This document shows, one piece after another, positions 36,822 through 64,000 of a DNA stretch of 64,000 nt; the stretch's first letter is position 1; every line of letters starts with the position of its first letter. The stretch is taken from contig JAACJO010000047.1 of NCBI GenBank assembly GCA_013368445.1, forward strand, positions 57,587-121,586, read 5' to 3'. The DNA comes from Leucocoprinus leucothites (Eukaryota > Basidiomycota > Agaricomycetes > Agaricales > Agaricaceae). The position numbers and the translations under genes are program-made. A model generated the notes under the pieces. It saw only the letters and a program-made list of their open reading frames with translations. It ran no database searches and had not been told where the DNA came from.

Positions 36822-36823
36822 TT

Positions 36824-36836
36824 AAGTAGAAACGAT
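36824..36836 (+). promoter_or_regulatory. Self-primer binding site of element A
   Basis: AAGTAGAAACGAT, two bases after the LTR, is the exact reverse complement of ATCGTTTCTACTT at 36591-36603, which begins where a transcript from the TATA box would start. No tRNA-type TGG start is present. This matches the self-priming mode known for Tf1 and sushi-type elements. Confidence 0.82.
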
Positions 36837-38337: not shown

Positions 38338-38393
38338 GAGGACCAGGAGGACCAGGAGGACCAGGAGGACCAGGAGGACCAGGAGGAGGACCA
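38338..38393 (+). repeat. 9-bp GGAGGACCA tandem repeat
   Basis: About six units of GGACCAGGA encode a Gly-Gly-Pro repeat in the gag frame, just before the first ATG. Confidence 0.9.
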
Positions 38394-38426
38394 CCAAATC
38401 CTAATCCAAACCCCCCGCCAAACCCA

Positions 38427-42541: not shown

Positions 42542-42564
42542 ACGGTGAAGGTAATTTACCTTAG
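41884..42564 (+). CDS. Double zinc-knuckle ORF replacing the integrase core
   Basis: In frame 1 (pol is in frame 2) the region about 41915-42564 encodes 226 aa from the ATG at 41884. Two metal-binding motifs sit side by side: CDICHGMGHIKTLC (CX2CX4HX4C) and CTWCDTFAPGHFTKYC (CX2CX6HX4C). Then follow an Ala-rich stretch, an Arg/Gly/His-rich stretch (R-G-R-K-P-A-P-R-G-R-Q-Y-G-R) and an acidic tail. The base composition is visibly richer in CpG than the rest of pol. The motif order recalls a gag-like nucleic-acid-binding protein captured from elsewhere. How it would be translated is unclear: its ATG lies inside the pol frame. It ends 51 bp before the 3' LTR. Confidence 0.65.
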   Translation: MPYLSTVQNQSSRPGRTSRTCDICHGMGHIKTLCPGYHCTWCDTFAPGHFTKYCSRNPYKGIARRDLPPVALAALSITEGVDAAKALALQSISGSARIQPRQSGVPTGNHDAPVTDAVGLRSERHNPTSTAVNTTSLGPTYNPTFTPRRGRKPAPRGRQYGRLQTSVRSSHPNHQGRSPNGRPHHGRTPRIYEGERPLTPPYEDGNYESHYDDEANFNIDGEGNLP

Positions 42565-42601
42565 TGACTTAGATAGTTACTAAGATGTGGACATCTTAGC
42601 T

Positions 42602-42614
42602 AGGAAAGGGATAA
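42602..42614 (+). promoter_or_regulatory. Element A polypurine tract
   Basis: AGGAAAGGGATAA immediately before the 3' LTR is the likely plus-strand primer. Confidence 0.8.
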
Positions 42615-43277
42615 TGTTATGTATATTGATTATATCTAGCATTTGTTCCATCTATAATACGAAGTCGATATTAGCTTTACTTAAGTAATATCGCAATTAT
42701 GTTTCTTTATATTTGTTCTTGTATTTTCTCGTTTGTTTTGACTCATTTACTTTGCCTGGTTACGACTCGTTATGACTTGTTTAGTTTTGTTTGTATTTTG
42801 ATGACATGTGATTGTTAAATATAGCAGCGCTATATTTGGACTTATCTTGTGATCGATCAAATGATCAAAGAAGAACTTCTTTAGAAGAACTTCTAAAGCT
42901 TCTTTGACAGATTGCGTCTTATATAGTTTAATTAGCGTTAAGGAAGCTGTACGCTTCTCTTCTTTCATTAGAAGCCCTTAGCCCTATTTAATAATAGATA
43001 CCGACTTGTATCGTATATAAGTCGTCGACATCTACCAAGGAGAAACATCGTTTCTACTTGGTTAGGTGGAGACTCAATACGAGCCTTTATCTATACAAAG
43101 TCGAATTGAACTTAAGCTCTAAGATCTCAATTACTAAAGTCTTAAACTCTATAATCGCCGTATTATAACTCTGACTTAGTAAACGACTTTGTCGCTTACC
43201 GAGAAGGAGTCCCCTTTGATAAGATCAACTCGATACTTATCGCGCCAGCTTAGGACCGGGCCGGCGTCACTATAACA
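42615..43277 (+). repeat. Element A 3' LTR
   Basis: 663 bp, 660 of 663 bases identical to the 5' LTR, followed by the ATGAT duplication. Confidence 0.97.
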
Positions 43278-48334: not shown

Positions 48335-49860
48335 TACACCCTTGATGATCTGCAACTTCAACACAAATCCAGTGCTAGCAAAGCCATGGACTCACAGTCC
48401 TCAGCGACAGAATCATTTGATGAAGTAATGAAACTCTGACAGTAACATAAATACATCCGAAGCAACCATTATTGTTTTATCTTAGAAAGGTGGTGCCAGA
48501 GTTTCCTTCAGGTGTGGCAACATTTTTGGTAGCTGCCCTTTTACACATTCTCACCATCCTCAGCTGAAACTGTTTACTTGTTAGTAAATCACCACTTCTA
48601 ACATTGCCTCTCAATATCCTTCATCGGGTCGTGAGATCCATGAACCGATGAACAGGCAACTTGGTATTCTCTGGTATCTGTTCACAGGGACTATAGAACA
48701 ACACATTTGAGAAGTGCTCATGCAACAAAATCACCAGTGTATTAAATTGTACTGATTTCTGTGAGGCAAATACTGAGATTTCAGAGGGCAGAGTGAAATC
48801 TGGATGGAATACGTGCAAGCCTCCATACACCCATGCCTAAACTAGAAAACTATTTGGTTTACAAGTGTTGCTATGTGTTCAGGCACATTCCAGGGAGTTT
48901 GTTCCAATGCCCAATGGAAACTGAGGTATAAGCCATGGTCTCTGTAGTTGTCCTCTGACTTAGGGCTGGGGTCGAGTATGGATATCTTGTGGTGGGGAAG
49001 GAGAAATGTGGGGGAAGAATTCTGGCAATAGCTCTCTGGTGACTGGAACTTGTCAGTCAGCTCAGTCCTTGAACATTTGGCCTGATGCATTTTTGAATAG
49101 ATACATACCGAATTGGTCATACCGGGAATGTCACAGTCTTCAAACTTTAGGACAAAACATGGAAAAGTTGCCTGTGAAGTAAGTTTGTGTGATTCCTGGC
49201 CAAACCCCTGTATGATGATGGGGGTTATCAAATATACACAAGATGAGATTCAGAGGTGGGTGCACTAGAGAGTTTTTGAGGTAGATGAAGAGAAAAGTTG
49301 GACCAGATGATTAAATGCCATGGTGCCACTAGATGGGCTGGTGTGAGTGCTCATCATAAAGCTAAGAAATGTCAAATGAGTCCATACATGTCTCATAAAT
49401 CAAACACAGATGGGGAAATAAAGAGGGGTTGAGCTAGAGAAGCAATTGAGTACATTCACTACACAGAGGGCCATACTTCACTGCAAAAACCCTCCAATGT
49501 CAATAGAAGTTGTCAAATTTCATAAACAGTGAGAAAATCACTCACTTGAGGAGAGTCACGAGGGTGTATGTGAAGGCTTGGGTCACCTTTTAGCAAGATT
49601 GAGTGGGATGCACTTGAATCTGCATAGGCAATCAAGAAACCTGCTAAAGCCACTCTCGGTGTGACGCGAAAACCGAAAATAAACAAGAAATACTAATATT
49701 TTCGCGATTTCACACTTAGTATTATAAAAGAATAATGCTATGCCTAAGAGCCCTATAGTGCGATAGCGGTGTAGCTACAAAGCTACTTACTAAGAAGTAA
49801 TACGGTCAACCAATACGGCAGGCGAGACTGGTAATCTAGTACAGCTGTCCACTGTTGTGA

Positions 49861-49930
49861 ACCGTTCCGGGGATTCGAACCCTCGACTTCAGGGCACCGC
49901 ATCTCCGAATTACCGCTTTAGGATCGAGGG
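49861..49930 (-). other. tRNA-like patch inside the LTR
   Basis: Read on the minus strand, GGTTCGAATCC matches the eukaryotic tRNA B box, preceded by CTGAAG as in a Phe-type anticodon loop, and flanked by CGTTC/GAACG that could pair as part of an acceptor stem. The spacing and the T stem do not fold into a proper cloverleaf, so this is at best a tRNA-derived relic. The 3' LTR copy has extra changes. Confidence 0.3.
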
Positions 49931-50411
49931 AAACCTCCGCGCCGAGAACGATCCGAACGATCTAAAAATAAGGACCAAGGTCTAGAACCGGATCAGAAGA
50001 ACCAACGGACCGGTTAACAGACAACGATCCGCGTTTTCCACATGTACAAGACAGGAACCTAGCTACCCCGCTGCTTAGCTACGTCATTTCTGCACTGCTC
50101 AGTCATCCAACTGTACTGGCCAAAGCAAACCGATGGTCGCATTGACGTGTCAGGGGCCCTCGGTTAAAGAAAATATCACAGCCGAAATGCTTACCCATGA
50201 TTAAAAAAGGATTAATGAAAGAAACTCGCGTGGTAGCTACTCCGCTACCCATACGACAACCTAGCGATCGAACGGACCTACCGGTCGGCGTCGCATCGTA
50301 AAAGTATACCCAGTCGAATCCAGGACAATTCAGTCAATTTCTATTAGTCAATTTCGAGTCATACCTATTTCTTTCTAGAATATTTCGTCTATTTTCGTAT
50401 CTCTCAAATAA

Positions 50412-50418
50412 TATAAAA
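50412..50418 (+). promoter_or_regulatory. TATA box in element B LTR
   Basis: TATAAAA followed by AGGGCCC. A transcript start about 30 nt downstream (near 50445) is likely. The same box is present in the 3' LTR. Confidence 0.65.
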
Positions 50419-51000
50419 AGGGCCCGACAGCGTGCGGATAGGCAAGGAATCCTACGCCTCCGTAGTGCTATAGGGTGTGCAGACCACAAACTAAGCATTT
50501 GTTGAGTGAATAAGTGAGCAACCTTCTAAGAGAACTCTAACACGAAAGACTCCTACTAGTCAATCTAAGAAATATCCCAAGACGTCTCGAGTTCGACCTA
50601 GCGTCACAGCGAAGTAGCTACCAAGCTAAGAGAGCTTGTAGTTAAAGCGTATAGACCGCACCAGCGCCAGTGTGTGACTGAGTGGGTGATTATAGACAAG
50701 GTCCAGTTGACCTTAGAGGGAGACAGAGACGACTTCAGGATAAAAGATCTTAGCTATAGCAGTCAACTAAGAGTCGCAAACTGTGCACTTAATCAGGATC
50801 CTGGTACAGTGTTCGAGAATTTCCCAAAGTAAATAAAACAGCATTTAGTTCCCTCGCACCTTTCGCATTATTCAGCAGTAATTACATAAATCCTCATCAA
50901 CTACTCATACTTCCCCTCGAATTCGTTAGAGGTTACAGTCTAGCTACCTAGCTAGTACTCCACTTGACGTTATATCCATACGTCAAAGAATCTCTACATC

Positions 51001-51018
51001 TGGAGCCCACCGCGAGGG
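51001..51018 (+). promoter_or_regulatory. Primer binding site of element B (tRNA type)
   Basis: TGGAGCCCACCGCGAGGG starts two bases after the LTR with TGG, as expected for pairing with a tRNA 3' end carrying CCA. I cannot say which tRNA. Confidence 0.65.
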
Positions 51019-51480
51019 AAGTTTCAGATTTGTTGAGGACTTTCTTTTTATTGTTGTTTTCATTTATTATTTTACAAAACGTCTTGGGGACCTCCTCCGA
51101 AGTCTTCAACACCAAAAGGCTTAAGACAAAAAGCCACCTTAGGAAGTATCTCCCTTAACAAAGGAGCGACTTCTACCCATAAAAGAACAACCAAGACTTC
51201 TGCCAAGGCAGGGCTTGTGAAACCTTATACGCCTCCAAAGCGTGTTTCTAGAGTCAAGCGAACAGAAAAGCCAGGATCTTCTGCATCGACTGCCTGTTTA
51301 GCTAAAAAGCTACCTGGCCAGTGGACCGACGACGAGGACGAAGCTTCGTTGATTGAGAAAGAATTACTTGCCTTACCTGCCGATACTTCCGAACAGGAAA
51401 TATTATCGCATTTGCCGCCACCTGAGTTTACTACTCAGAAAGAACAATCCTCTATTTCGAACTCCACGATACCTTCAAAT

Positions 51481-52914
51481 ATGGTGAATACTCCGAATAT
51501 GCCCAGGATGCTCTCTAACGAGGCTCCTGCATGGGACGGAAAAGGAAATTCACTTAGGCAATATATTTGGCATGTTGAACGACTCTTATCGTTCTGCAAA
51601 ATTACGGACCCTAAAGAGAAGATTGACTGGCTGATAACATATTTGCCAAGTCCCGAGCACCGAGAAGAGTGGTTAGGATTTGCCTCTATAGCTGGGGACG
51701 ACTATGAAGCCTTTAAGGCTAAAATCCACGAGGAATATCCGGAAACGGTTTCCTATGAGCAAGGATCTGTCAAAAGGCTCAGAGCGATTTGCCAAGAATA
51801 TAAAGGGACTACAATGGATGATGAAGGTCGCCTGTTAGCTTTCAAGCGACGCTTTATCACTGAAGCCACCAAGTGTCTCAAGGTGCCGCCTCTAGTATCC
51901 AATCGAGAGTTAGTAGAAATGTTCACTAGTGCGTTGGACCCAGACTTCCAACGAGCACTGAACAATAAACTAAGTCTCCAAGGGAAAACGAGAACGGTCA
52001 TCGAGCAGAAAGAGCTTTGTGACGAAGATCCGTATGATTACCAAGAAGTAATTAAAGAAGCAGTCACACTAGTATCAGGGAAAACTCTGTTAAGATCTCA
52101 AAATTCGGAAAGGGTTATCCTACGATCGGATGTAGCTACGTCGCTATTCCCGAAGCACGAAGAAGTAACTTTGAATCGAAAGGTCGAAGATAAACTCGAA
52201 GCGCTAAACGGCGAGGTAGCTAACATAAAAGATAGTATCCAGATACAACATGATAATATAAAGTCCTTAATAAAAGAATTCGCTCAACAAGTTTCTAAGA
52301 CAAGTAACCAATCGAGCTATTCTAGGACTGCCCAATCTCAGTCTCAGCCTAATGGTAATCAGTGCAAATACTGTGGAGGCGACGACCACTATCTAAGAGC
52401 CTGTCCGGATAAGGAAAAAGACTTAGCCAATGGACGGATCAAATGGGATAGGGATAACCGGTACCTATGCTTCCCTGACGGGGTTAGCATTCCTAGCGGA
52501 CCCGGATCGATCAAGGCTAAAGTGGATACTTTCCACCGGAGCCGGATCGCCAATTTACACGTTGAAGCAGAAGAGGATATTCCGCTTTTGGATGAAATCC
52601 GGAAGAAGACTCCTTATTCCAATTTCGTGTGTGGGGTCTGGGATAACCGAGACAAAGTCATAGAGACACAGATGGGCATGATGAGCGATAAGGAAAAAGA
52701 ATTAGAAGAAACTAAGAGTCTGCTGGAGGTGTACAAACAACTTGTGAACGCGCGTCAGGCTAATAGCAAGGTAGCTACGTCGCAACCGGCACCCCCAGCA
52801 CCTGAAAAGGCAGCGGATCCACTGAACAATTTAAAAGACCAAATTGCGTTGTTACAGGCTCAACTTAATAACATGGCCATTAATAACAACTCCACTTCCC
52901 AACAGGGTTTCTGA
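51481..52914 (+). CDS. Element B gag (capsid and zinc knuckle)
   Basis: The first ATG of the transcript (51481, A at -3 and G at +4) gives 477 aa. The same frame is open from 51037, so a longer non-ATG product is possible (basic, Lys/Pro/Ser-rich). Residues about 10-200 look like a Ty3-type capsid (R-M-L-S-N-E-A-P-A-W-D-G-K-G-N-S, then I-D-W-L-I-T-Y-L). A zinc knuckle CKYCGGDDHYLRAC (CX2CX4HX4C) lies near residue 297. A coiled-coil-like C-terminus follows (E-K-E-L-E-E-T-K-S-L-L-E-V-Y). The stop at 52912 is preceded directly by GGGTTTC, and the protease frame is -1. Confidence 0.92.
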   Translation: MVNTPNMPRMLSNEAPAWDGKGNSLRQYIWHVERLLSFCKITDPKEKIDWLITYLPSPEHREEWLGFASIAGDDYEAFKAKIHEEYPETVSYEQGSVKRLRAICQEYKGTTMDDEGRLLAFKRRFITEATKCLKVPPLVSNRELVEMFTSALDPDFQRALNNKLSLQGKTRTVIEQKELCDEDPYDYQEVIKEAVTLVSGKTLLRSQNSERVILRSDVATSLFPKHEEVTLNRKVEDKLEALNGEVANIKDSIQIQHDNIKSLIKEFAQQVSKTSNQSSYSRTAQSQSQPNGNQCKYCGGDDHYLRACPDKEKDLANGRIKWDRDNRYLCFPDGVSIPSGPGSIKAKVDTFHRSRIANLHVEAEEDIPLLDEIRKKTPYSNFVCGVWDNRDKVIETQMGMMSDKEKELEETKSLLEVYKQLVNARQANSKVATSQPAPPAPEKAADPLNNLKDQIALLQAQLNNMAINNNSTSQQGF

Positions 52915-54008
52915 ATAGTTCTGTGAAGGTGTCCCGCTCGAAAGGGAAAGTCACCCCTTCGAAGAAGAGGGAACCGGAGAACCGTTCAGACAGTGACACC
53001 TCGGACGAAAGTGAAGAGGAACTGCCGCCTAAAAAGAAAAAGAATAAGAAAGTGGAATTACCGTATAAGAAGGTACCCCCTATGAAACCAGTGGTAGAAG
53101 TGCCACCCATTCCTTTAAGACATTTACAAAAGGAGAGGGAAAAGTTAAAAGAAAAAGCGCCTCCTAACTACAAACATGAAGCACCCATTGAGAGAGAAGT
53201 GGACGTCGATGACGTCCTTAACAAACTTCTTAAAGCTTCGACAGGAGTATCTGTCGAAGAAATAATGGCGCTATCACCTAAGTTACGGAACGCGTACAAG
53301 GAATTAATTTCAAAGAAAAGGGTAGCTACCCAGCTACAAGGCGTCCCAGCGTCTGAAGATGAAGAGGAAATCCCACGACAAAAAGATGTCGTACAGGTAC
53401 ACTTACACACTTTAGAGGAAGGGCGACTTGTAAAACGAGAATTGCAAGGAGTTCCGGGAGGCCCGACTGAAGCTTGGGTAGTACAGGACCCGATCACGCA
53501 GTACTTAGAGACGTTACCTAAAGAGGATAGAAATAACCAAGTGTTTGTGTCTAGGGAATCGGAAGCACTTCGCTGTATTACGGCGACTATAAACGGTGTT
53601 TGTAATGAAGAAGCATTGCTGGACAGCGGCTCCCAGATAATCTCTATGAGTCGCGAGGTAGCCATGGAGGCTCAGTTAACCTGGGACCCGGACATTACCA
53701 TCTTAATGCAAAGCGCTAGTGGCCATATGAAGCGAACTTGCGGACTAGCTAAAGACGTGCCTTTCCGTTTAGGGGGAATTATAATCTTCCTACAAGTACA
53801 TGTGCTGCCTGACCCACCTTATGGAGTGTTATTGGGAAGACCTTTTGACACCCTTACCCAAAGTCAAGTCCAGAATACTAAGGACGGAGGACAAACCCTA
53901 ATATTGACGGACCCAACTAGCGGGAATAGAGCGGTAGTACCTACCCGAGCACGAGGAGCTTGCCCTAGGATGCTAAAGAAGGCACAAGTGGCAAGCGAAA
54001 ATTTTTAA
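52887..54008 (+). CDS. Element B protease ORF
   Basis: This frame has no ATG-based start near its beginning and is expected to be read by -1 frameshift from gag. The N-terminal half is highly charged (P-P-K-K-K-K-N-K-K). The retropepsin-like core carries the active-site L-L-D-S-G-S-Q-I-I near 53620 and the later G-V-L-L-G-R-P-F, typical of Ty3-type and fungal retroviral-like proteases. It ends S-E-N-F-stop, with the heptamer AAATTTT before the stop, identical to the gag/pol junction of element A. About 370 codons. It matures Gag and Pol. Confidence 0.9.
   Translation, partial: QLHFPTGFLNSSVKVSRSKGKVTPSKKREPENRSDSDTSDESEEELPPKKKKNKKVELPYKKVPPMKPVVEVPPIPLRHLQKEREKLKEKAPPNYKHEAPIEREVDVDDVLNKLLKASTGVSVEEIMALSPKLRNAYKELISKKRVATQLQGVPASEDEEEIPRQKDVVQVHLHTLEEGRLVKRELQGVPGGPTEAWVVQDPITQYLETLPKEDRNNQVFVSRESEALRCITATINGVCNEEALLDSGSQIISMSREVAMEAQLTWDPDITILMQSASGHMKRTCGLAKDVPFRLGGIIIFLQVHVLPDPPYGVLLGRPFDTLTQSQVQNTKDGGQTLILTDPTSGNRAVVPTRARGACPRMLKKAQVASENF
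52905..52911 (+). promoter_or_regulatory. -1 frameshift site, gag to protease (element B)
   Basis: Gag codons are CAG GGT TTC TGA. G GGT TTC fits X XXY YYZ and directly precedes the stop. The protease frame is open from 52887, so a -1 shift joins them. Confidence 0.75.
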
Positions 54009-57000
54009 ACAACCTCGAGGAATTGAAAGAACAAGGAGAGGTGGTTTTAATTATAGATAAGATACCAGGACAGGCGCCAGTGGTTACCGAAACCTTGGCA
54101 ACTGCAGGAGAATTTACGGAGGATGAGATAAGACTACTCTATCTTCAGAAAGGATTAGAGGAGCGACCGGGGACATCTACTGAAGAAAAGGGATTATTCC
54201 AGAATTACCTATCTCAGGTAGCTACCCCACTAGCTCGTCAACACCAAGTAACCGCGGTCGAAGAGGTCGAAACGGCTGACCCGTTACAAGTGTTTGCAGG
54301 AAAGAAATATAAACCTGTAGCATTAAAGGTGAGACCAGTCCTAGGAGAACTCCCACAAGAATACAGAATCATTAGGAATATTACTGGTGATCCTTTGGCC
54401 GGAATGCCCGAGCTACCTAGCTACCCACCTACATTCGTTCCGAAGGGAAGATATACCCAAGAAAGAATGGAAGTGTTGGATGCCGGTCACTCAGGGGATT
54501 TCCTATGGCCTGAAGAACGAAAACTTATGCATCATCTAATTAGTTTACAAAATGAGGCTTTTGCTTGGGATGACACAGAAAGAGGGAGGTTCAAGGAAGA
54601 ATTCTTTCCGGCGGTAGAAATTCCAACGGTAGCCCATACACCTTGGGTAGAGAAAAATCGACCCATTCCACCAGCTATTTATGATGAGGTGTGTAAGATT
54701 ATTAAGAAAAAGATCGCAGCAGGAGTCTATGAGCCTTCAAATTCCTCGTATAGATCTCGCTGGTTTACCGTCATAAAGAAAGATGGAAAGAGCTTAAGAC
54801 TAGTACACAGTCTCGAACCTCTCAATAAAGTCACCATTGCACATTCTGGGTTACCTCCAGCAACTGAAGAGCTCGCCATGCACTTTGCAGGAAGAGCCTG
54901 TAATGGCATACTAGACTTGTATGTGGGTTACGACGAACGAGTACTAGCGGAAAAATCCCGGGATTTGACCACCTTCCAGACTCCTTTTGGGGCATTGAGA
55001 TTGGTAACACTACCTATGGGTTGGACCAACTCTGTACCGATTTTTCATGATGATGTTACAGATATTTTAAAAGAAGAAACACCTGAGTATACTATGCCTT
55101 ATATAGACGATGTACCAATTAGAGGACCCGCCACCAGGTATGAACAACCTGATGGTAGCTACGAAATGTGTAAACTGAATCCCGGTATTCGTCGTTTTGT
55201 ATGGGAACATATGAATACGGTAAATCGCATACTTCAAAGGATGAAATATGCCGGTGGTACCTTCTCAGGACCTAAGACTACCATCTGCGCTGATAAAATC
55301 ACCATAGTAGGGTTTGATTGTTCATATGAAGGACGGTCACCGACTACGGATGCAATAGGCGTCATCACTAGATGGGGACCATGTGAGGACTTCACCGATG
55401 TACGAGGGTTTTTAGGAACGGCGGTCAGGTGTAGACATCACGTACCCGGCTTTGCTTTACTAGCTACCCCGCTATATGACTTGCTTAGGAAAGGAAAGGA
55501 CTTCGAATGGGGACCTGAACAACAAGCGGCTCAAGACAGGATTAAAGAGGCAATTAAGAAAAGCCTTCCTATCAAAAAGCCCAAGTTCCCGAGTTCACAG
55601 CCTTTAGTATTGTCGGTCGACAGTTCGTGGAGAGCAGTCGGTTACTATATATGGCAACGTGACGAGTCCGATCCCAAGGTCATAAATTACATTAAGTTCA
55701 ATTCAATCCTCATGGACGAAAGACAACAACGTTACTCTCAGCCCAAGAGAGAGCTGTGCGGCCTGAAGATGGTGCTTGATGAAGAAAGATATTTATTCTG
55801 GGGATGTAGAAACCTGGTCATTGAGACAGACGCCAAGTACCTATTTGGTATGCTCAACAATCCAGGCAGACTACCGAACGCAACAGTCAATCGCTGGGTA
55901 GCTGAGATAAGAAATTATCAGTTTACCTTAATACATAAAGCAGGAAAAACGTTCGGGCCTGATGGTCTCTCCCGGAGGAAACGTTATGAAGGGGATAACT
56001 CGAATAGGAAATTTGATGACGGAACAGACGATGAGGGGGAGGAATTTGAATTAGTCAAGTTCGATCCTAAAGTGCCAGATCCGTTACCCCTAGAGGATTT
56101 TTTAGGAGATATAGATACCCGGACCGGGTTCGTCAATGAAATCGCCGCAGAAATCGGAGATTTTGAGTGGGAACTTAATTGGGCACTCGAAGGAAGGAGG
56201 GCAGAAGAGATGGCGCGTAGCAACTTAGCTAGCGAGCCACAATGCCCAAAACCTTTGAAAATCTTCTTGAGTGAAAGCCTTGGAGAAAAGTTAATACCCG
56301 ATTTCGATAAGGTAGATGCTTCCGACCCGGCATATGAATATGACGAAGAGATCAGATCTGAGGTTGCTCGAGAACAAGACGCTCGATTGCCCAGAATTAA
56401 AGATTGGCTCGCTTCGCGAGGTAGCTATACGGCTGACTCGTGGAAAAATCCCGAACTAATGAAACTGTCAAGAGCAGCGTCACATTTCTACTTAGATGGA
56501 GATGGGCGTCTATACCGTCGGAACGGAAAGGGATCACCTCAACTAGTAGTTGACAAGTCACACAGGATGTACATGATGACGGCGGCACACGATTGCTTAG
56601 GGCATCGTGGTATATATGCGACGACTCAGTTAATTACGCAAAGATTTTGGTGGCCGGACGTGGAAAAGGATATTACTTGGTTTGTCAGGAGTTGTCATAT
56701 TTGTCAAGTCCGACAAAAGGTAGCTACCGAGCTACCACCTGTAGTAACCCATACTCCGTCAATATTCCAAGTACTACATGCGGACACTTTACACATTTCG
56801 CCTGCCTCGAACGGTTGTAACTACTTAGTTCATGGCCGGTGTGCGCTGTCTTCATGGATGGAAGGGAGAGCCTTAAGAAAAGAGAACGCAAGAACCATCG
56901 GACAATGGCTATTTGAAGACATTATCTGCTGTTGGGGTGGTCTGGTGAAAATCGTGACCGACAATGGTGCACCATTCAAGAAAGCGGTTAAGTGGCTTGA

Positions 57001-57808
57001 AGAGAAATATGGTATTAAGGGAGTAGCTATCTCGCCATATAACTCTAAAGCAAATGGCACCATCGAACGCCCGCACTGGGATGTTCGCCAAATGCTATAT
57101 AAGGCAACCGGAGGCGACATAAAGAAATGGTTCTGGTTCTTACACCATGTCATGTGGGCCGATAGGATCACAATCAGAAAAGGGACGGGTTGTTCACCCT
57201 ACTTTATGGTCACGGGCGCCCACCCGACTTTACCTCTGGATGTACAGGAAGCGACGTGGCTAGTTAGCTACCCAGGGAAGATGATGTCCACAGATGAACT
57301 TATTGGATTAAGAGCGTTAGCCCTGGCGAAGCATGTGGCACATGTCGAGGCAATGCGGACAAGAGCAAATGAAGAGAAACTGGCTAGAGCCCTTAGATTA
57401 GAAAAAGAAAATTCTGCAAAGATCAAAGAATGGGACTTCAAGCCGGGTAACTTAGTGTTAGTTAGGAATACGGCCATTGAGTCATCGGCGGACCGAAAAA
57501 TGAAGCCAAGATATTTAGGACCCATGGTTGTGATCGCTCGCAACAAAGGGGGAGCTTATATCTTAGCTGAAATGGATGGGTCTGTCTGGCAAAACAAAGT
57601 GGCCGCGTTTCGAGTAATTCCATACTTAGCTAGGAAGACCATCCCTCTTCCAAAAGAGGTAGAGGAGGCCCTAGACATTAGCAAAGAAAGTCTAAACGAT
57701 CTTAAAGATAAGGAAGAAGAACACTGGATGCTTGAAGATGAATGGTCAGATGACAACATAGCGAGTTCGCACGACACAAGTTCGAAGGACAAAGAAAAGG
57801 ACTTGTGA
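53969..57808 (+). CDS. Element B pol (RT, RNase H, integrase)
   Basis: About 1270 codons after the frameshift. RT: R-L-V-H-S-L-E-P-L-N-K-V and the catalytic Y-I-D-D at 55100-55111 (Ile in place of the usual Met or Val). RNase H: L-S-V-D-S-S-W-R-A-V-G, K-R-E-L-C-G-L and I-E-T-D-A-K-Y-L. Integrase: H2C2 finger (H-D-C-L-G-H ... C-H-I-C), then catalytic L-H-A-D-T-L-H, V-T-D-N-G-A-P and N-G-T-I-E-R-P-H, so D, D and E are all present. A C-terminal basic/acidic region follows to D-K-E-K-D-L-stop. No chromodomain is visible. The frame is intact and probably functional. The stop lies 93 bp before the convergent antisense gene. Confidence 0.95.
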   Translation, partial: DAKEGTSGKRKFLNNLEELKEQGEVVLIIDKIPGQAPVVTETLATAGEFTEDEIRLLYLQKGLEERPGTSTEEKGLFQNYLSQVATPLARQHQVTAVEEVETADPLQVFAGKKYKPVALKVRPVLGELPQEYRIIRNITGDPLAGMPELPSYPPTFVPKGRYTQERMEVLDAGHSGDFLWPEERKLMHHLISLQNEAFAWDDTERGRFKEEFFPAVEIPTVAHTPWVEKNRPIPPAIYDEVCKIIKKKIAAGVYEPSNSSYRSRWFTVIKKDGKSLRLVHSLEPLNKVTIAHSGLPPATEELAMHFAGRACNGILDLYVGYDERVLAEKSRDLTTFQTPFGALRLVTLPMGWTNSVPIFHDDVTDILKEETPEYTMPYIDDVPIRGPATRYEQPDGSYEMCKLNPGIRRFVWEHMNTVNRILQRMKYAGGTFSGPKTTICADKITIVGFDCSYEGRSPTTDAIGVITRWGPCEDFTDVRGFLGTAVRCRHHVPGFALLATPLYDLLRKGKDFEWGPEQQAAQDRIKEAIKKSLPIKKPKFPSSQPLVLSVDSSWRAVGYYIWQRDESDPKVINYIKFNSILMDERQQRYSQPKRELCGLKMVLDEERYLFWGCRNLVIETDAKYLFGMLNNPGRLPNATVNRWVAEIRNYQFTLIHKAGKTFGPDGLSRRKRYEGDNSNRKFDDGTDDEGEEFELVKFDPKVPDPLPLEDFLGDIDTRTGFVNEIAAEIGDFEWELNWALEGRRAEEMARSNLASEPQCPKPLKIFLSESLGEKLIPDFDKVDASDPAYEYDEEIRSEVAREQDARLPRIKDWLASRGSYTADSWKNPELMKLSRAASHFYLDGDGRLYRRNGKGSPQLVVDKSHRMYMMTAAHDCLGHRGIYATTQLITQRFWWPDVEKDITWFVRSCHICQVRQKVATELPPVVTHTPSIFQVLHADTLHISPASNGCNYLVHGRCALSSWMEGRALRKENARTIGQWLFEDIICCWGGLVKIVTDNGAPFKKAVKWLEEKYGIKGVAISPYNSKANGTIERPHWDVRQMLYKATGGDIKKWFWFLHHVMWADRITIRKGTGCSPYFMVTGAHPTLPLDVQEATWLVSYPGKMMSTDELIGLRALALAKHVAHVEAMRTRANEEKLARALRLEKENSAKIKEWDFKPGNLVLVRNTAIESSADRKMKPRYLGPMVVIARNKGGAYILAEMDGSVWQNKVAAFRVIPYLARKTIPLPKEVEEALDISKESLNDLKDKEEEHWMLEDEWSDDNIASSHDTSSKDKEKDL
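53999..54005 (+). promoter_or_regulatory. -1 frameshift site, protease to pol (element B)
   Basis: Protease codons are GAA AAT TTT TAA. A AAT TTT is a canonical-type slippery heptamer next to the stop, and pol is open in the -1 frame from 53969. The same 10-base string occurs at 39612-39621 in element A. Confidence 0.82.
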
Positions 57809-57901
57809 TTTCTACTGGTAAAAAACCTTGGAAAGGAAAACCAGGTACAGCTTTGGACCAACTAAAGTACTATCCTACGAAGCAAGGTGGCTATCTAGCT
57901 A

Positions 57902-59295
57902 CTAAGCAGAGGTAACAGGAGAAGGCTGAAGGGACTGAAGAAGCTGTTCCTGTTCCAGTGCGAACGCTTGGTAACGACGGCCAACGGCATCCATCTCCAG
58001 CAGGCATTCGAGCAGGGAGCGGTTGACAGACAACAAATGAGTCTGTTTAGCTAGGGACTCACACGCATCGAAGTTCCTGACTTGGAGGGCGCGAGCAGCG
58101 ATTATAAGAGATTGAACGTCTTGAAGATAGGACGCTACTGAGCCAATTAGCGGAGTAGCTAACTTGGTAATGAAATACACGTACTTGGCAGAGGGGGACA
58201 TAAATAGCCTTCTGGGAAGCTCGAGGTGCCGGAGTTAGCCAGTAACTGGGTGGCCCGGTGATAAGCCCTGCTTTGAGTGTCCATGCCTGGAACGTGGAAG
58301 TAAGAAAGGCGCACCGTTTCCGGACGAGCAACGGTAGGAGAGCCGTTCTAGCCAAAGAATGATAAGACTTAAGTAATATTAACCGGTGATACTCCAATTA
58401 GTTACTTACCGAGGTAGCGACAGAATTCCTGCGCTTCGGAGTAAAAGACGACACAACTACAGGCTCATCGAAATGAACTGCAGGAGTGGTAGTGACGTTG
58501 GGAACAGCATTGGATTCGTTGATAGCGGAGGCAACAGCAGCAGGAGCACTGGCTTCGTCGTCAACAACCATAGCCTGTTTAATCGGAATTAAATAGCTAC
58601 ACAGCTGCCTGGCTGGAAAGGCGTACCGTTATGGTCACTTCATCGTCGGATTCCTCGACGGTTGCGGGAGACGTAGGTTGCTTCTTTTTTCGGGGCTGGT
58701 TGGACAACGAGTAAGACAAGAAGAAGGATAGGAGACTTAGGATTTGAGATACTTGCCTTTTTGGTAGTAGACGCCGGAGCAGGACGCTTCGATCCCGTTT
58801 TGGGACCAGCAGTTGAGTTCGACGGAGTGGTGTTATCCGTGGATGCTGGCTCAGCTGGAGTCATGGCGGTAGCCGTAGGACCACCTTCAGCGGTGCCCTC
58901 TGCACCTTCACCGCCTTTATTGGCGTTCTGAATGCAGTAACGGTTCAAGGACTCGAAGTAGGGAGGTGCCACATAGCCCGAAATATTGTTCAAAGCGTAA
59001 CGGACGTAGTGACGGATACGAAAAGCCCGCTCACGGGCTTCGCTGTCTTGAGCAAGGACAGGGTCAGTGGTCAGCTTTTTAACAAGCTCGGCCTGGAAGG
59101 CGAGTTAGCGACCTAGCTGCCATGCTAAGGGGGAGTACTCACAGCAAGGGGGTCGAGTTGCGACATCGAGAAGGACACAAAGGAAGGCATAATGTTGCCA
59201 TTCTTGTGACCTTGGACAGTCGTACGAATCGACATCGTGAGCTGGTCGAGTTCACAATAAGTAGCGGGTTCGGTGGAACCAGTGTTGGAAGACAT
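57902..59295 (-). CDS. Antisense gene 2 of element B (6 exons, 373 aa), unknown function
   Basis: Exons by plus-strand coordinates, 5' to 3': 59143-59295, 58757-59092, 58627-58695, 58410-58574, 58185-58347, 57902-58137. Introns are 47-62 bp with GT-AG ends, except intron 2, which reads GC-AG (AAG|GCAAGT). The joined frame is open for 373 codons and stops at 57902. Start M-S-S-N-T-G-S-T-E-P-A-T-Y. The N-terminal 100 residues look folded (A-F-R-I-R-H-Y-V-R-Y-A-L). A long disordered middle is Pro/Ala/Thr-rich with two basic patches (K-K-P-R-K-K-K-Q), then acidic. The C-terminal 100 residues are alpha-helical and may be a coiled coil (L-E-C-L-L-E-M-D-A-V-G-R-R-Y). No family recognised. Confidence 0.8.
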
Positions 59296-59991
59296 GATGC
59301 ACTAAGAGGACAAGGATTTCACGAAAGAGTGTTTAAGTTTGAAGAAGTCCGTGCTCGCATACCTTCGTTTTATAAGGGACGGCTAGGTAGCTACATAGCG
59401 ACAGGCTAAAAAGTGCGGAACGTGTTAGGGGCCGGATCACCACTGGCAGGTACAATCGGATATACCCCTGGGGATTAAACACCGATCCGACTCCTAAATG
59501 AAGAGGGTTGACCCGAGTGGCGTTTAGATCCGCCGAGTTTTCTGTACCAAGAATTTTTTCGCGTGCGCGTGACTCCTTGCCGGGTGGTCCAGGTTTGGAC
59601 TGACTTTGGTAAGGGGGAGAGGGTTACTCAGCAGTTCATGATACATGTTACCAAAGACAATCCTGCAAAAGCAACTCAGTTGAAACTGGCGAGGGCGAGG
59701 TTTTTCGGACTCTATTTCCCCTTAATAAGCCTGAAAGTCTCACTCACACCTCATGGGAAACCGGAGACAACAAGATAGGATTGCGGATAATAGGGGCAGG
59801 TGAAATATGTACGTGATAAGAGGTGAGAAACGGCGACAATGATGCAACAAGAAATCCAGCGAAAATAAACGTCCTACTCGAGTCCAACCTAAGCAGCTAC
59901 TAAATCATGAGTACCTCAAGAAAGAAGAAAGAAAAATGGTCCATAAAGATGGCCGCAACAAGAGATTGAAAATACAACATGAAAAAGATGA
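59296..59991. other. Spacer between the two antisense genes
   Basis: About 700 bp without coding potential. It should hold the promoter of antisense gene 2 and the 3' end of antisense gene 1. A GTAGCTAC motif is at 59387. Confidence 0.6.
59368..59375 (-). promoter_or_regulatory. TATA-like box of antisense gene 2
   Basis: On the minus strand TTATAAAA lies about 75 nt upstream of the ATG at 59295. Confidence 0.5.
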
Positions 59992-62191
59992 TTACTCAGC
60001 AGCCTTGCCTTTACCTTTATCGCCAGACGACGACTTCCTCTTCTTGCCTTTAGTCCCACGAGAACGGACTCGGGCGGCGAAATGAAGATCGGTGAGACCC
60101 GGACGCTCTTGTAGCCCAAGGGCTGCTCCTTCCTCAGCGGCTTGCTCAAGTAAAGCAATGACGTTCTCGTGGAGTGTAAAGGCTGTCTCCAGACGCTTCG
60201 AAAAATCAGAAGTCGCATCCGACGATTTGTAGATGGCCGTAGAGACCTCTAGAAGCTCGAGGAAGGCTTCGGGATTGTCCAAAATGCCGGTATTGACGAG
60301 GAAGTCGGGGCCGCGCATCTGAGCCAAGCAGTTGAGGTCGTACAGCAAATTTGCTAGTTGTAGGCGGTACTGCTCGACGGAATAGGTAAGCTGCTGCTGG
60401 GTAAAGACGACTTGAGCATGTGCGGCCACCAAAGTTTGAAGACGACGAGAGAAGTCTATCCAAAGAAAGATATGAGACCGGAAGAAGAAGATGAATCAAG
60501 ACAAAAAAGGCGTACCCGAGAAACCTGCGATCGAGAGACGATAAGTCTCGTTAGCATGCGTGAACAACGAAGTGTCCATGACGGAGAAGGAGCAGTGGCT
60601 CCGACTCTCCTTGCGGCATTCGTCGCAGGCTTGACCAGGGAGACGGGGGGTACAAGTACCGCGACTTTTCGTGATGCACCAAAGGCAGCGCGCAGGAGTT
60701 TCGAGCTACACAAGAAAAAAAAAAAAAAAAAAAAAAAGCCGATTAAATTAAAGAAAAAGAACAGGGTTAGTTACTTACTTTGCGAGCATCCGGGAGAACG
60801 AACATCTCCTTCAGAACGTCGAGAGAGGAAGAGAACTTGCCGCCCGAAGTAGCAGCAACCTCCGACGCTGACTGAGGAGCTGGCAAGTAAGGTAGCTAGT
60901 TTAGCAGCCAAAACACAACCAGAGGAACGAGGAAAAGGACTTACCACGAACCCAGAGCGTTTTCTTACCTACCTTACGGGGAACGAGACGGCGGCCATTC
61001 TCGTCGTAGCGTTCTTTGGATAGAGGTATGTCCTCTTCGGACGACTCTTCCGCGGCCTCCTCCATACGGACCTTCGAAGAAGAGGCTCTGGCTGGCTTGA
61101 CTGGCGCCTTCTTGGGCGGAGGTTTCTTCACCTGAGTCTTTCTCGTCGATGCGCAAGTTGGCTTTGGAGGCGGCGTTGGAGTTCGTTTGGACGCCGAACA
61201 TTTCGGATGCCGAGTCAGCAGAAGGCTCTACCTCTGAGCCCGAGATAGATGAAACCGTCTCTTGAGCAGGCCCACCCTCTTGATCAGAATCGGATTCAGG
61301 GGAATGGTCGGCCTCGGAAGCAGCTGATGGGGAAGAAGGAACAGGGGGAAGGGGCGGAGCTTTGACGGAGCTACGCTTCTTGGCAGTAGGGCGAACAGAC
61401 GAAGGAGAGGCAACGACCTCGGATTGACGGACAGCCTGAGGAGTGGCAGGTATAGGATACTCCCAGTTGGGAGGAATATGCGAAGGGCGAACAGGAACCG
61501 GAGCCGGGACCACTGCGTGGACCTGTGGCGCCCCCACGGTCAGAGCGGTTTCAGGTTCCAAAGTCGTGATCGGCGGCTGGGAAAGAGTTGGCGAGGGGAC
61601 TGAGGGAACTTGGCCTTCCAGCACCGAAGGATCGAGGGTAGCAGGCACTACAGCCCACTTAAGTAAGGAGGGAGTGAACGGAGGAGCTTCAGGCATCATA
61701 GCGAGCTGGCTGGAACACGGTCTCATCGACACAGGACTGTAGATGAGCGGTTGTGGAACAGGAGGCTGGGAGGGAGTAGAATCTTGACGAGCTTTCTTAG
61801 CAGTCGGAGCTGCTGGCGTGTCGGACGACGTGGCCTTGCGTTTTTTGGAACCCTTAGCCGGTCGTGGCTCAGGTTGAGAAGAAACTAGCCCTGTAAAGCG
61901 AGGAGTTAGGGCAAAACAAAGATGAAAAGAGAACGTAGCACACCAGCCTCCGCAGAGCTCGGTGACCCATCCTTGCGTAGCTTACGACGACCTTTAGACG
62001 AAGGAACTTTTTTCTGCTTGGAAGAGGAAGCACGAGTCGTGGGTCCGTCCTGCGATGACGCTGGAACATCCAGCTGCTTACCGCTCCGAGAAGAACCAGC
62101 CTTCGCTTTTGAAGAACCAGGTTGGATAGTACCTAAGAGTAAGACTATGAGTAACGAAAAATACAAGTTAAGATGATAACTTACGAGCCAT
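59992..62191 (-). CDS. Antisense gene 1 of element B (7 exons, 595 aa), zinc-cluster-like protein
   Basis: Exons, 5' to 3': 62185-62191, 61944-62132, 61232-61890, 60945-61131, 60779-60879, 60525-60705, 59992-60455. The six introns are 52, 53, 100, 65, 73 and 69 bp with GT-AG ends. The sum is 1788 nt, exactly 596 codons with the stop. The N-terminus is basic and Ser-rich, the middle disordered (Pro/Ser-rich, acidic, K-K-P-P-P-K-K). Residues 388-419 carry six Cys with spacing CX2CX7CX8CX2CX7C, close to the fungal Zn2Cys6 pattern. Residues about 442-500 look like a coiled coil. The tail is basic (T-K-G-K-K-R-K-S-S-S), a likely nuclear signal. A DNA-binding role is inference. Confidence 0.82.
60715..60737. 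repeat. Poly-A run (T run on the gene strand) in an intron
   Basis: 23 A in a row on the plus strand form the pyrimidine tract of the 73-bp intron 60706-60778 of antisense gene 1, just before its 3' splice site. Confidence 0.9.
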
Positions 62192-62266
62192 CGGGAAAGG
62201 CAGAGGACAACGATGATGGCGGAAGGAAAGAAAGGGCAAGACAACGGTCTAGCGACTAAGTTGTTC

Positions 62267-62276
62267 TTTATATATA
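62267..62276 (-). promoter_or_regulatory. TATA box of antisense gene 1
   Basis: On the minus strand TATATATAAA lies about 76 nt upstream of the ATG at 62191, nearly the same spacing as in antisense gene 2. Confidence 0.6.
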
Positions 62277-62657
62277 GCCCTGTAGCTTGCTGTCACGTTG
62301 ACGCGCTGGGAAAGACACGTGTCCCCAACAAGAAGCCCCAAATGACGTGTTGGGAAGTTCATCGTAATGATGGGCAGAAACTGCCAGCGAAGAAGTTGTG
62401 CTGCGCCAGTTCTGCCTAAGTACAACTTCTGAGGATTCGCAAACATGACGCATAGCTAAATAGTTTGATCGACGTTAAGCAGCGCCAAGATAATCAGGGA
62501 ACTAAGAATAGAAGCCACACGTGGGAACCGTCGATCAAAAATGCCCGGGTACTTCCTGAAAGAAGTCAGGCAGGTCGCGATAAATCGCCACAGCTGCGCA
62601 GGACGTCTAGAACGTTCTAGAACAATACCCATACATAGGCTGAGGACAGCCAGAGTT

Positions 62658-62671
62658 GGGTAAGGGGGAGA
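62658..62671 (+). promoter_or_regulatory. Element B polypurine tract
   Basis: GGGTAAGGGGGAGA immediately before the 3' LTR. Confidence 0.75.
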
Positions 62672-64000
62672 TGTGACGCGAAAACCGAAAATAAACAAGA
62701 AATACTAATATTTTCGCGATTTCACACTTAGTATTATAAAAGAATAATGCTATGCCTAAGAGCCCTATAGTGCGATAGTGGTGTAGCTACAAAGCTACTT
62801 ACTAAGAAGTAATACGGTCAACCAATACGGCAGGCGAGACTGGTAATCTAGTACAGCTGTCCACTGTTGTGAACCGTTCCGGGGATTCGAACCCTTGACT
62901 TCAGGACACCGCATCTCCGAATTACCGCTTTAGGACTCGAGGGAAACCTCCGCGCCGAGAACGATCCGAACGATCTAAAAATAAGGACCAAGGTCTAGAA
63001 CCGGATCAGAAGAACCAACGGACTGGTTAACAGACAATGATCCGTGTTTTCCACATGTACAAGACAGGAACCTAGCTACCCCGCTGCTTAGCTACGTCAT
63101 TTCTGCACTGCTCAGTCATCCAACTGTACTGGCCAAAGCAAACCGATGGTCGCATTGACGTGTCAGGGGCCCTCGGTTAAAGAAAATATCACAGCCGAAA
63201 TGCTTACCCATGATTAAAAAAGGATTAATGAAAGAAACTCGCGTGGTAGCTACTCCGCTACCCATACGACAACCTAGCGATCGAACGGACCTACCGGTCG
63301 GCGTTGCATTGTAAAAGTATACCCAGTCGAATCCAGGACAATTCAGTCAATTTCTATTAGTCAATTTCGAGTCATACCTATTTCTTTCTAGAATATTTCG
63401 TCTATTTTCGTATCTCTCAAATAATATAAAAAGGGCCCGACAGCGTGCGGATAGGCAAGGAATCCTACGCCTCCGTAGTGCTATAGGGTGTGCAGACCAC
63501 AAACTAAGCATTTGTTGAGTGAATAAGTGAGCAACCTTCTAAGAGAACTCTAGCAGGAAAGACTCCTACTAGTCAATCTAAGAAATATCCAAGACGTTTC
63601 GAGTTCGACCTAGCGTCACAGCGAAGTAGCTACCAAGCTAAGAGAGCTTGTAGTTAAAGCGTATAGACCGCACCAGCGCCAGTGTGTGACTGAGTGGGTG
63701 ATTATAGACAAGGTCCAGTTGACCTTAGAGGGAGACAGAGACGACTTCAGGATAAAAGATCTTAGCTATAGCAGTCAACTAAGAGTCGCAAACTGTGCAC
63801 TTAATCAGGATCCTGGTACAGTGTTCGAGAATTTCCCAAAGTAAATAAAACAGCATTTAGTTCCCTCGCACCTTTCGCATTATTCAGCAGTAATTACATA
63901 AATCCTCATCAACTACTCATACTTCCCCTCGAATTCGTTAGAGGTTACAGTCTAGCTACCTAGCTAGTACTCCACTTGACGTTATATCCATACGTCAAAG
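62672..64000 (+). repeat. Element B 3' LTR (cut by window end)
   Basis: 1329 bp present, in register with 49660-50988. Of about ten substitutions, seven are CG in the 5' LTR against TG here. Two single-base indels also differ. Confidence 0.95.

Follow-up and report, generated by a model that had tools for sequence, protein, structure and literature searches.

Two antisense genes in a Ty3/gypsy-type retrotransposon

We identified two multi-intron genes on the strand opposite gag-pol of an LTR retrotransposon of the mushroom Leucocoprinus leucothites, in a stretch of 64,000 nucleotides called the window here. Both genes lie on the minus strand between the pol stop (57808) and the 3′ LTR (62672), and they are almost certainly long-established accessory genes of a retrotransposon lineage in which they have been conserved. 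Two conserved multi-intron antisense genes, together with a dense candidate motif, make the question of their function directly testable. The features of the host element are as follows.

49660..50998, + strand: 5′ LTR (TGTGACG...TACA; eight TAGCTA words)
51001..51017, + strand: putative primer-binding site, read from the sequence (starts TGG, two bases past the LTR)
51217..52914, + strand: gag-like ORF (CCHC-type knuckle assigned by eye; Pfam zinc-knuckle match far under the cut-off)
52923..54008, + strand: aspartic protease ORF (Pfam PF13650, E 5.3e-8)
54023..57808, + strand: RT-RNase H-integrase ORF, stop at 57808 (Pfam RT_RNaseH and Integrase_H2C2)
62662..62671, + strand: polypurine tract AAGGGGGAGA, read from the sequence
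62672..64000, + strand: 3′ LTR, truncated where the contig stops

Judged by these features, the host element is a Ty3/gypsy (Metaviridae) LTR retrotransposon of the Ty3 type. It has paired LTRs, PBS-like and PPT sequences in place and the order PR-RT-RH-IN, in which PR, RT_RNaseH and Integrase_H2C2 were ordered by Pfam and the RT catalytic motif was recognised by eye only. The best-scoring protein match of the RT-RNase H-integrase ORF was from Agaricus bisporus, with 70% identity. The LTR pair of the window copy is 99.0% identical over 1330 aligned bases. Its right LTR ends at the contig end, so the TSD cannot be read there; for copy C19, no TSD of 3–10 bp was found at the LTR ends as drawn. 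The window also contains a second element (A), with LTRs at 36143-36821 and 42601-43277, against which the antisense proteins gave weak matches only (E 0.029 or worse).

Structures of the two genes

The exons and the candidate TATA boxes of the two genes are listed below.

62267..62276, − strand: gene 1 TATA box, 85 nt 5′ of the ATG
62185..62191, − strand: gene 1 exon 1, ATG at 62191
61944..62132, − strand: gene 1 exon 2
60945..61890, − strand: gene 1 exon 3, frameshifted in the window copy by a private 1-nt difference
60779..60879, − strand: gene 1 exon 4
60516..60705, − strand: gene 1 exon 5, with the six-cysteine motif CX2CX7CX8CX2CX7C
59992..60455, − strand: gene 1 exon 6
59368..59375, − strand: gene 2 TATA box, 80 nt 5′ of the ATG; TATAAA in 8/8 copies
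59143..59295, − strand: gene 2 exon 1, ATG at 59295
58757..59092, − strand: gene 2 exon 2; the intron after it is of the GC-AG type
58627..58695, − strand: gene 2 exon 3
58410..58574, − strand: gene 2 exon 4
58185..58347, − strand: gene 2 exon 5
57902..58137, − strand: gene 2 exon 6

Gene 2 (59295-57902, minus strand) is intact and encodes 373 amino acids and a stop; the original prediction had it close over six exons and 1122 nt, and the same model was recovered here. Both splice ends of its introns 1–5 were kept in 7/8, 8/8, 8/8, 7/8 and 6/8 copies, and intron 2 was a GC-AG intron in all eight. The spliced-ORF score of the gene 2 region was 68.1 on the minus strand and 11.9 on the plus strand, against a maximum of 52.8 in 60 Markov shuffles.

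Gene 1 spans 62191-59992 on the minus strand, and its conserved structure consists of six exons, which amount to 1890 nt in copy L003. It had been predicted to be intact and to have seven exons, and neither statement held. Exon 3 of the window copy differs by a private single nucleotide in length from the seven other aligned copies and is thereby frameshifted. The seven-exon model (1794 nt when re-modelled) was ruled out because it needs a false intron at this frameshift. Another private frameshift, of 2 nt, was found in gene 1 of L002, which is 99% identical to the window copy, and none of the eight copies has an intact gene 1. The spliced-ORF score of the region was 101.6 on the minus strand and 27.3 on the plus strand (maximum of 65.2 in 60 Markov shuffles), for a scored path that, given the frameshift, cannot equal the true gene throughout. 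Both splice ends of introns 1–5 were kept in 5/8, 4/8, 8/8, 7/8 and 8/8 copies, and the acceptor of intron 2 was retained in only four of the eight. The TATA box was present in the six copies that align at this position (L001, L002, L003, L005, L007 and L008), the stretch being two bases shorter in L005, L007 and L008.

Copies in the genome and selection on the genes

The antisense region was found at nine genomic places over most of its length, and eight copies (L001-L008, L001 being the window copy) were compared. The genes had been proposed to travel with the element, and the comparison bore this out: they lie inside the LTR pair, both were present in all eight copies, and the splice sites of the same antisense exons were largely kept, which excludes the possibility that no other copy carries the region.

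We also examined dN/dS among the copies for neutral decay, with a divided outcome: decay is seen in individual old copies but not in the lineage as a whole, where both genes are under purifying selection, as seen between subfamilies. With CpG sites excluded, dN/dS between L001 and each of L003-L008 was 0.14–0.34 for gene 1 (6/6 pairs) and 0.22–0.41 for gene 2 (5/6 pairs, the value of 0.67 for L007 being set aside because the end of gene 2 was misaligned). The values were 0.87 and 0.56 for the youngest pair, L001-L002, with CpG sites included, and 0.63 and 0.60 for the pair L005-L008. Furthermore, the exon gaps read as common to at least two copies all had lengths divisible by three (6, 3, 15, 27 and 3 nt). 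In gene 1, 14 of the 18 gap intervals in introns were not divisible by three, nor were 9 of the 15 in exons overall; we read these non-triplet exon gaps as confined to a single copy or, beside the 15-nt gap, as a private insertion column.

Conservation in a related family

Both antisense genes were found at the same place in all five examined loci of a related family, whose pol is 57–69% identical, depending on the piece. The gene 2 homologue has only 24% identity, with a pairwise E of 7e-11 over its length and a shuffle z of 12, and it retains the six exons and the intron phases 0,0,0,0,1. Automatic models of gene 1 in the relatives were unreliable and only the pieces of exons 5 and 6 were used, which gave shuffle z values of 7.0 and 6.9. 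The six cysteines of gene 1 were invariant in all four aligned rows, as was the spacing CX2CX7C, and the motif is retained at 21–24% identity. Within the related family (L069-L074), changes at codon positions 1/2/3 numbered 46/31/121 in gene 1 and 20/7/27 in gene 2, again with an excess at the third position.

Three loci of a group with 39–49% pol identity were also examined. On C13, which belongs to this group, a 972-bp repeat is 99.9% identical between its copies, and the 3′ one starts about 116 bases past the last aligned pol base, so close behind pol that there is no room for the antisense genes. The antisense proteins gave no match at E 0.05 against L070 and L076 and one match (E 0.034) against L075, where L070 and L075 were compared without delimited LTRs.

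A family-specific palindromic motif

49756..62296: palindrome TAGC-N4-TAGCTA-N4-GCTA, at least 10 of 14 bases, 51 sites (28 clusters)

The dispersed motif that had been noted in the element proved to be real and strong. At the threshold of at least 10 of 14 bases, 51 sites were found where 4.4 were expected, and at 11/14 there were 30 against an expected 0.56. The motif is 22 bp long, and its clusters occur about once per 460 bp in the LTR, gag-pol, the antisense introns and the promoters. Of the 16 sites in the antisense region, 15 did not lie mainly in exons (Fisher 5e-6), and the same was true of 9 of its 10 clusters (binomial 0.001). The exact pattern occurred at 58 places in the genome, and the control occurred at none.

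Motif columns in introns and upstream regions showed about 2 to 6 times less divergence than other non-coding columns in five of six copies, a comparison biased toward conservation since the columns were chosen from L001. In L007, the motif columns were not conserved at all (23/100 vs 22.1%), and at the pol end they were not clearly more conserved (2/57 vs 6.4% and 5/57 vs 8.3%). Six other sequence sets contained 0–2 sites at 11 or more of 14 bases (expected 0.08–1.1), so that among the scanned sets the palindrome is confined to the family of the window element; the related family that has both genes is without it. The motif is tied to the antisense proteins by co-occurrence alone.

Protein features and homology searches

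Both proteins contain basic clusters that resemble nuclear-localisation signals. The six-cysteine motif of gene 1 resembles a zinc cluster in its spacing, although the usual spacing is CX2CX6C and here it is CX2CX7C. Exon 5 of the window copy gave no match to PF00172 (fungal Zn2Cys6), and one relative gave a sub-threshold match (E 0.28, 11.8 bits vs a cut-off of 21). Structure prediction of exon 5 alone placed short helices behind each CX2C with a confidence too low for the model to be relied on (pLDDT 54.9, pTM 0.28).

Pfam searches with the gene 1 pieces and gene 2 returned nothing above the cut-off, only two sub-threshold DUFs, and the TRP28 domain PF04195 was absent from the matches at E up to 1. 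The VANC domains DUF1985/DUF287 gave no Pfam match, and the PDB gave no meaningful match by sequence. Larger searches used gene 2 and the C-terminal piece of gene 1. In a set of 5.8 billion proteins they found no homologue at E 1e-3; fungal proteins are present in this set, as a pol query gave 1467 matches among 7991 scored candidates, but such a search easily misses multi-exon genes and proteins of about 25% identity. In the genome, they recovered, from 25 and 39 scored candidates, copies of the element and a single short relic on C9. Searches of collections of viral contigs and genome contigs found no relatives of pol.

Possible function of the gene products

We consider that the gene products are probably nuclear regulators of the element; that they act through the palindrome is a more tentative suggestion, which we rate as less likely than not. 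The overall reading by analogy, namely nuclear accessory proteins that act in trans via the palindrome in a VANC/VANDAL-like manner, appears plausible, and we hold it with some reservation. Each gene would be read from its own TATA box on the strand opposite gag-pol, and both proteins would enter the nucleus and act in trans, by recognising the 22-bp palindrome in copies of the same element. The outcome would be activation or un-silencing of these copies, as with VANC, or the setting of their transcription. The antisense introns would be reversed in the genomic RNA, and intron-containing genes could survive reverse transcription because such introns stay unspliced there; the same genes in sense orientation would lose their introns. 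The explanation thus offers a reason for the antisense placement of intron-bearing retrotransposon genes.

VANDAL elements are DNA transposons. In VANDAL21 of Arabidopsis, a short family-specific motif occurs densely in introns and upstream regions, the accessory genes diverge faster than the transposase gene, and motif binding and demethylation by VANC have been shown (PMC5735166). The present element resembles this system in its fast-diverging accessory genes and in a family-specific motif of high density, again in introns and upstream regions. It differs in that the VANDAL motif is reported mainly in non-coding tandem repeats, whereas here it is also found within the coding part of gag-pol, where its flanks vary, and in that VANC was studied experimentally, whereas the present system is known from sequence alone (PMC5735166). 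A mushroom LTR lineage with its own sequence-specific anti-silencing, comprising two spliced antisense genes that encode nuclear factors, a family-specific palindrome spread over the entire element, coding regions among them, with antisense introns as landing sites, and genes and motif that change together between families, would be the fullest form of this explanation, and we regard it as speculative and rather unlikely. If true, it would mean that sequence-specific anti-silencing, as shown for a plant transposon, also exists in a retrotransposon of a fungus.

A different possibility, which we rate as doubtful but worth serious consideration, is that the proteins are nuclear accessory factors like those of plant antisense ORFs or HTLV HBZ, which would repress sense transcription or aid import or integration, while a host factor reads the palindrome. 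The closest described analogues share the position and orientation of the present genes, and nuclear proteins are among them (PMC7264820, PMC11963269); moreover, the related family keeps both genes without the palindrome. However, the near absence of the motif from the antisense exons and its density in their introns and promoters argue against this, and its confinement to one family among the scanned sets is easier to reconcile with a factor that evolves along with the family than with one of the host.

It is improbable that the antisense RNA itself is functional, with spliced transcripts pairing with genomic RNA to regulate it or to feed small-RNA silencing and the reading frames being secondary. 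For other elements, a regulatory role of antisense transcripts has been discussed in a review (PMC7264820), and CpG depletion in six of the eight copies suggests methylation-linked silencing, but the excess of third-position changes, the frame-preserving common indels and the persistence of the six-cysteine motif at such low identity need selection at the protein level; RNA as the sole function is thus disfavoured. Still less probable is a capture of host genes carried as passengers of a recent burst: with their short introns the genes do resemble ordinary genes of a fungus, but they occur in two families with strongly diverged pol, and the genome searches with gene 2 and the C-terminal piece of gene 1 led back to the element, apart from the C9 relic. 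The chance that both genes are an annotation artefact of fortuitous frames and splice sites is next to negligible. The seven-exon model of gene 1 does contain a false intron, but the shuffle and opposite-strand controls and the conservation among copies oppose this explanation, and it is refuted by the homologues that the related family carries.

Relation to known antisense genes

Antisense genes are already known in plant Ty3 elements and in the fungal element Boty. The brtn gene of Boty was reportedly described by Zhao et al. in 2011. Boty, from Botrytis cinerea, is of the Ty3 type and carries brtn as a single antisense gene between pol and the 3′ LTR (PMC7264820, PMC8365987). It is thus a fungal Ty3-type element like the present one, but with one gene and in an ascomycete, in a comparison made by description only. 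The original prediction, that the pair was undescribed in a fungal element, therefore applies at most to two tandem spliced genes, of which we found no case among the titles and abstract openings listed by searches of an open-access library.

In plants, antisense ORFs between pol and the 3′ LTR include Grande gene23, RIRE2, Retand TRP28 and PvRetro13 (PMC7264820, PMC11963269). They are alike in position, orientation and presence in most copies, and Grande has its own promoter and a nuclear protein (PMC7264820, PMC11963269). They differ in their plant hosts and in their proteins, with no TRP28 match found here, and the accessible parts of these descriptions mention neither a tandem multi-intron pair nor a family-wide palindrome (PMC7264820, PMC11963269). 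HTLV-1 HBZ is similar in being a nuclear protein from an antisense gene of an LTR element (PMC11963269); the HTLV antisense promoter is described in the 3′ LTR (PMC7264820), whereas the TATA boxes of the present genes are internal to the element. What antisense genes do in LTR retrotransposons is stated to be not known (PMC7264820). The placement of the aORF-3R type, an antisense gene between pol and the 3′ LTR, was found in all eight copies and in 5/5 relatives.

Element Architecture and Gene Models

The element is a Ty3-type LTR retrotransposon, and its two additional genes lie between pol and the 3' LTR, antisense to gag-pol. Its LTR pair is 99.0% identical over 1330 aligned bases.

Features of the element in the window copy
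G000:C47:57587-121586, window; the contig end falls within the element's 3' LTR
49660-50998, 5' LTR, 1339 bp
51217-52914, sense, gag-like ORF
52923-54008, sense, protease ORF (PF13650, E 5.3e-8)
54023-57808, sense, RT-RNaseH-integrase ORF (PF17917, PF17921)
59295-57902, minus strand, gene 2; six exons of 153, 336, 69, 165, 163 and 236 nt; 1122 nt; 373 aa
62191-59992, minus strand, gene 1; six exons
from 62672, 3' LTR, cut by the contig end

The protease ORF also has a weak additional match to DUF4100 (PF13352, E 9.1e-5), under its cut-off. In a set of 5.8 billion proteins, the top-scoring pol relative was from Agaricus bisporus var. burnettii (70% identical), which makes a related mushroom the probable host. 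The window holds a second LTR element (36143-43277; LTRs of 0.68 kb, 98.8% identical), in which no antisense genes were recognised.

The original prediction described two intact genes. Gene 2 does close, with six exons, 1122 nt and GC-AG ends at intron 2, whereas gene 1 is frame-shifted in the window copy (L001), where exon 3 carries a private one-nucleotide length difference relative to the other seven aligned copies. Gene 1 has six exons and not the seven proposed, because the seventh requires a false intron within exon 3 at that difference. In the 99% identical copy L002, gene 1 lacks two nucleotides at a different position, again as a private change, and in copy L003 gene 1 is 1890 nt, divisible by three, yet has two in-frame stops; an intact gene 1 was found in none of the eight copies examined. 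The gene 2 frame is open in both L001 and L002. When stop-free spliced frames were scored by dynamic programming with 60 shuffles per region (in the gene 1 region the scored path cannot follow the true gene throughout, given the frameshift), the minus strand scored 101.6 in the gene 1 region (plus strand, 27.3; shuffle maximum, 65.2) and 68.1 in the gene 2 region (11.9 and 52.8, respectively).

Conservation and Decay Among Copies

Other copies carrying the antisense region were indeed present: nine places in the genome matched most of the 4.3-kb region, some of them piecewise, and there were further fragments. Eight copies were fetched, including the window copy, to which L002-L008 were 99, 90, 87, 83, 81, 78 and 81% identical, respectively. 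Both splice ends of introns 1-5 were kept in 5, 4, 8, 7 and 8 of the eight copies for gene 1, and in 7, 8, 8, 7 and 6 for gene 2, L007 being misaligned at the last two gene 2 introns and L008 lacking the last one. The gene 2 length of 1122 nt was found in 5/8 copies (L001-L005). Among gap intervals of ≤ 60 nt, multiples of three accounted for 6/15 in gene 1 exons and 3/7 in gene 2 exons, and for 4/18 and 0/2 in the respective introns. The exon gaps read as common to copies were of 6 nt (L001, L002), 3 and 15 nt (L003, L006; the latter part of a 16-column gap adjoining an L001 insertion), and 27 and 3 nt (L005, L008). The remaining gene 1 exon gap lengths each came from a single copy, and the odd gene 2 exon gaps from L006 or from L007 and L008 where their gene 2 end is misaligned, one 5-nt interval there being common to the two. 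Further insertions lie within the antisense genes of two old copies, one of 711 nt (L004, gene 1 exon) and one of 1034 nt (L008, gene 2 intron 2). A near-identical copy on another contig (G000:C19:393864-408214) showed no 3-10 bp target-site duplication at its LTR ends as drawn, and may be a recombinant between copies.

CpG was mostly lost in L003-L008 (gene 1 counts: L001, 146; L003, 38; L007, 2), so dN/dS was also calculated without CpG-type differences. On that basis, L001 versus L003-L008 gave 0.25, 0.24, 0.14, 0.34, 0.21 and 0.14 for gene 1; for gene 2, L003-L006 gave 0.41, 0.22, 0.33 and 0.26, L007 gave 0.67 (misaligned end) and L008 gave 0.34 (270 codons). Pairs among L003-L008 gave 0.18-0.40 for gene 1, except L005-L008 (0.73), and 0.39-0.55 for gene 2, except L005-L008 (0.69) and five L007 pairs (0.54-0.72). 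With CpG included, the values against L001 were 0.17-0.40 (gene 1) and 0.30-0.44 (gene 2; L007, 0.53), and those for L005-L008 were 0.63 and 0.60. The youngest pair, L001-L002, gave 0.87 (gene 1) and 0.56 (gene 2) with CpG; without CpG, one difference remains per gene. The proposed comparison among copies thus revealed constraint between subfamilies and decay of single copies once inserted. With CpG excluded, pS of L005 and L008 versus L001 was ∼0.35 in gene 1 and 0.07-0.10 in gene 2, and this several-fold contrast between neighbouring genes suggests mosaic elements in which gene 1 was exchanged.

Homologues in a Related Family

Two groups of pol relatives occur in the same genome: one is 57-71% identical by piece (at least 12 loci), the other 39-49%. 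Homologues of both genes were detected by tblastn downstream of pol, and always antisense to it, in five first-group loci (L069, L071-L074). Gene 2 of the window matched directly in L069 (E 6.8e-5), L071 (3e-6), L073 (0.002) and L074 (3.8e-5); the gene 1 homologues were found via pieces of L069, the direct match reaching only E 0.14. A two-sequence comparison of gene 2 with the L074 exons spanned its whole length at 24% identity, with E 7e-11 and a shuffle z of 12.0, and L074 gene 2 has the same six exons and phases 0,0,0,0,1 as the window, its intron 1 being placed by homology with L069 and L072. For gene 1 exons 5-6, shuffle z was 7.0 versus L074 and 6.9 versus L071 (L071 versus L074, 14.4), and six cysteines, CX2CX7C-Xn-CX2CX7C, were invariant in 4/4 rows (including one pair of close relatives). 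Between L069 and L074, differences at codon positions 1/2/3 were 46/31/121 in gene 1 (215 codons) and 20/7/27 in gene 2 (248 codons); L072-L074 was similar, and the third-position excess was absent in L069-L072 (92.7% identical).

In the 39-49% group, the locus on contig C13 has no room for antisense genes, because ∼116 bases separate the last aligned pol base from the start of the 3' repeat copy (repeat pair 99.9% identical). Searched against the whole genome, gene 2 and the C-terminal piece of gene 1 matched element copies, along with one short relic on contig C9. This gene 1 relic (G000:C9:410971-411249) lies near a first-group pol, in an orientation inconsistent with that pol.

Promoters, Proteins and Possible Role

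Each gene has a TATA box: for gene 1 it is TATATATAAA, 85 nt before the ATG and present in the 6/8 copies alignable at this point, in three of which it is two bases shorter; for gene 2 it is TTATAAAA, 80 nt before the ATG, with TATAAA in 8/8 copies. A Pfam search with both antisense proteins gave no match reaching the cut-off. Both contain basic-residue clusters (KKRK, KKPRKKK) and would probably act in the nucleus. A zinc cluster in gene 1 is an idea from the cysteine spacing, and the exon 5 structure model is of low confidence. Introns in antisense orientation survive the RNA cycle, as in intron-marked retrotransposition reporters, and this orientation would likewise shield the introns of both genes. 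The CpG decay of the copies makes host methylation likely, so an anti-silencing role would have a target.

The Dispersed Palindrome

From 5' LTR to 3' LTR (13,012 bases), GTAGCTA occurs 33 times (1.8 expected; log10 P -29.5), and the aligned sites reveal a 22-bp palindrome, TAGC-N4-TAGCTA-N4-GCTA. Sites matching at least 10, 11 and 12 of its 14 bases number 51, 30 and 16 (expected 4.4, 0.56 and 0.08). The sites overlap at 8-bp offsets, giving 28 clusters in all, or one every 465 bp. The internal region has 41 sites versus 7 for the reversed pattern, and up to 200 shuffled palindromes of the same spacing averaged 3.7 sites (maximum 17, for one sharing the TAGCTA core). Genome-wide, the exact pattern occurs at 58 places (control, 0). 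In six sets from outside the family, sites of ≥ 11/14 numbered 0-2, near expectation.

Within the antisense region (exons, 3019 of 4863 bases), 15/16 sites (Fisher 5e-6) and 9/10 clusters (binomial 0.001; one half exon) are not mostly exonic. Non-coding motif columns, whose selection on L001 favours apparent conservation, differed in L003-L008 at 3/100, 3/99, 7/99, 11/99, 23/100 and 6/66, versus 9.3, 17.4, 20.5, 20.7, 22.1 and 21.0% of other non-coding columns. Of 23 sites, those kept among the alignable in L003-L008 were 14/20, 19/21, 18/21, 11/20, 5/18 and 5/9, respectively. At the pol end, motif columns lacked clear extra conservation in L004 and L005, the two copies compared there (the flanks of L003, L006 and L007 are unalignable as pol, and L008 has none).

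PMC5735166 places the motif regions of the Arabidopsis element VANDAL21 within VANC21 and VANB21 introns and upstream of VANA21, and describes VANC as more divergent than VANA. The dense family-specific palindrome, lying in antisense introns and promoters and avoiding antisense exons, parallels the VANC21/VANDAL21 system. Antisense genes at the same position are described for plants and for fungal Boty (PMC7264820, PMC8365987); the open-access literature searched yielded no tandem multi-intron antisense pair kept over deep divergence and combined with a dense palindrome. This palindrome was absent from the scanned loci of the related families, where TAGTGA/TAGCGA-type words (L071, L073) and TCGCGA (L069) were enriched, but the top L071 word was CCATCT. 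These words are suggestive only, and possibly represent CpG-decayed versions of motifs specific to those families.
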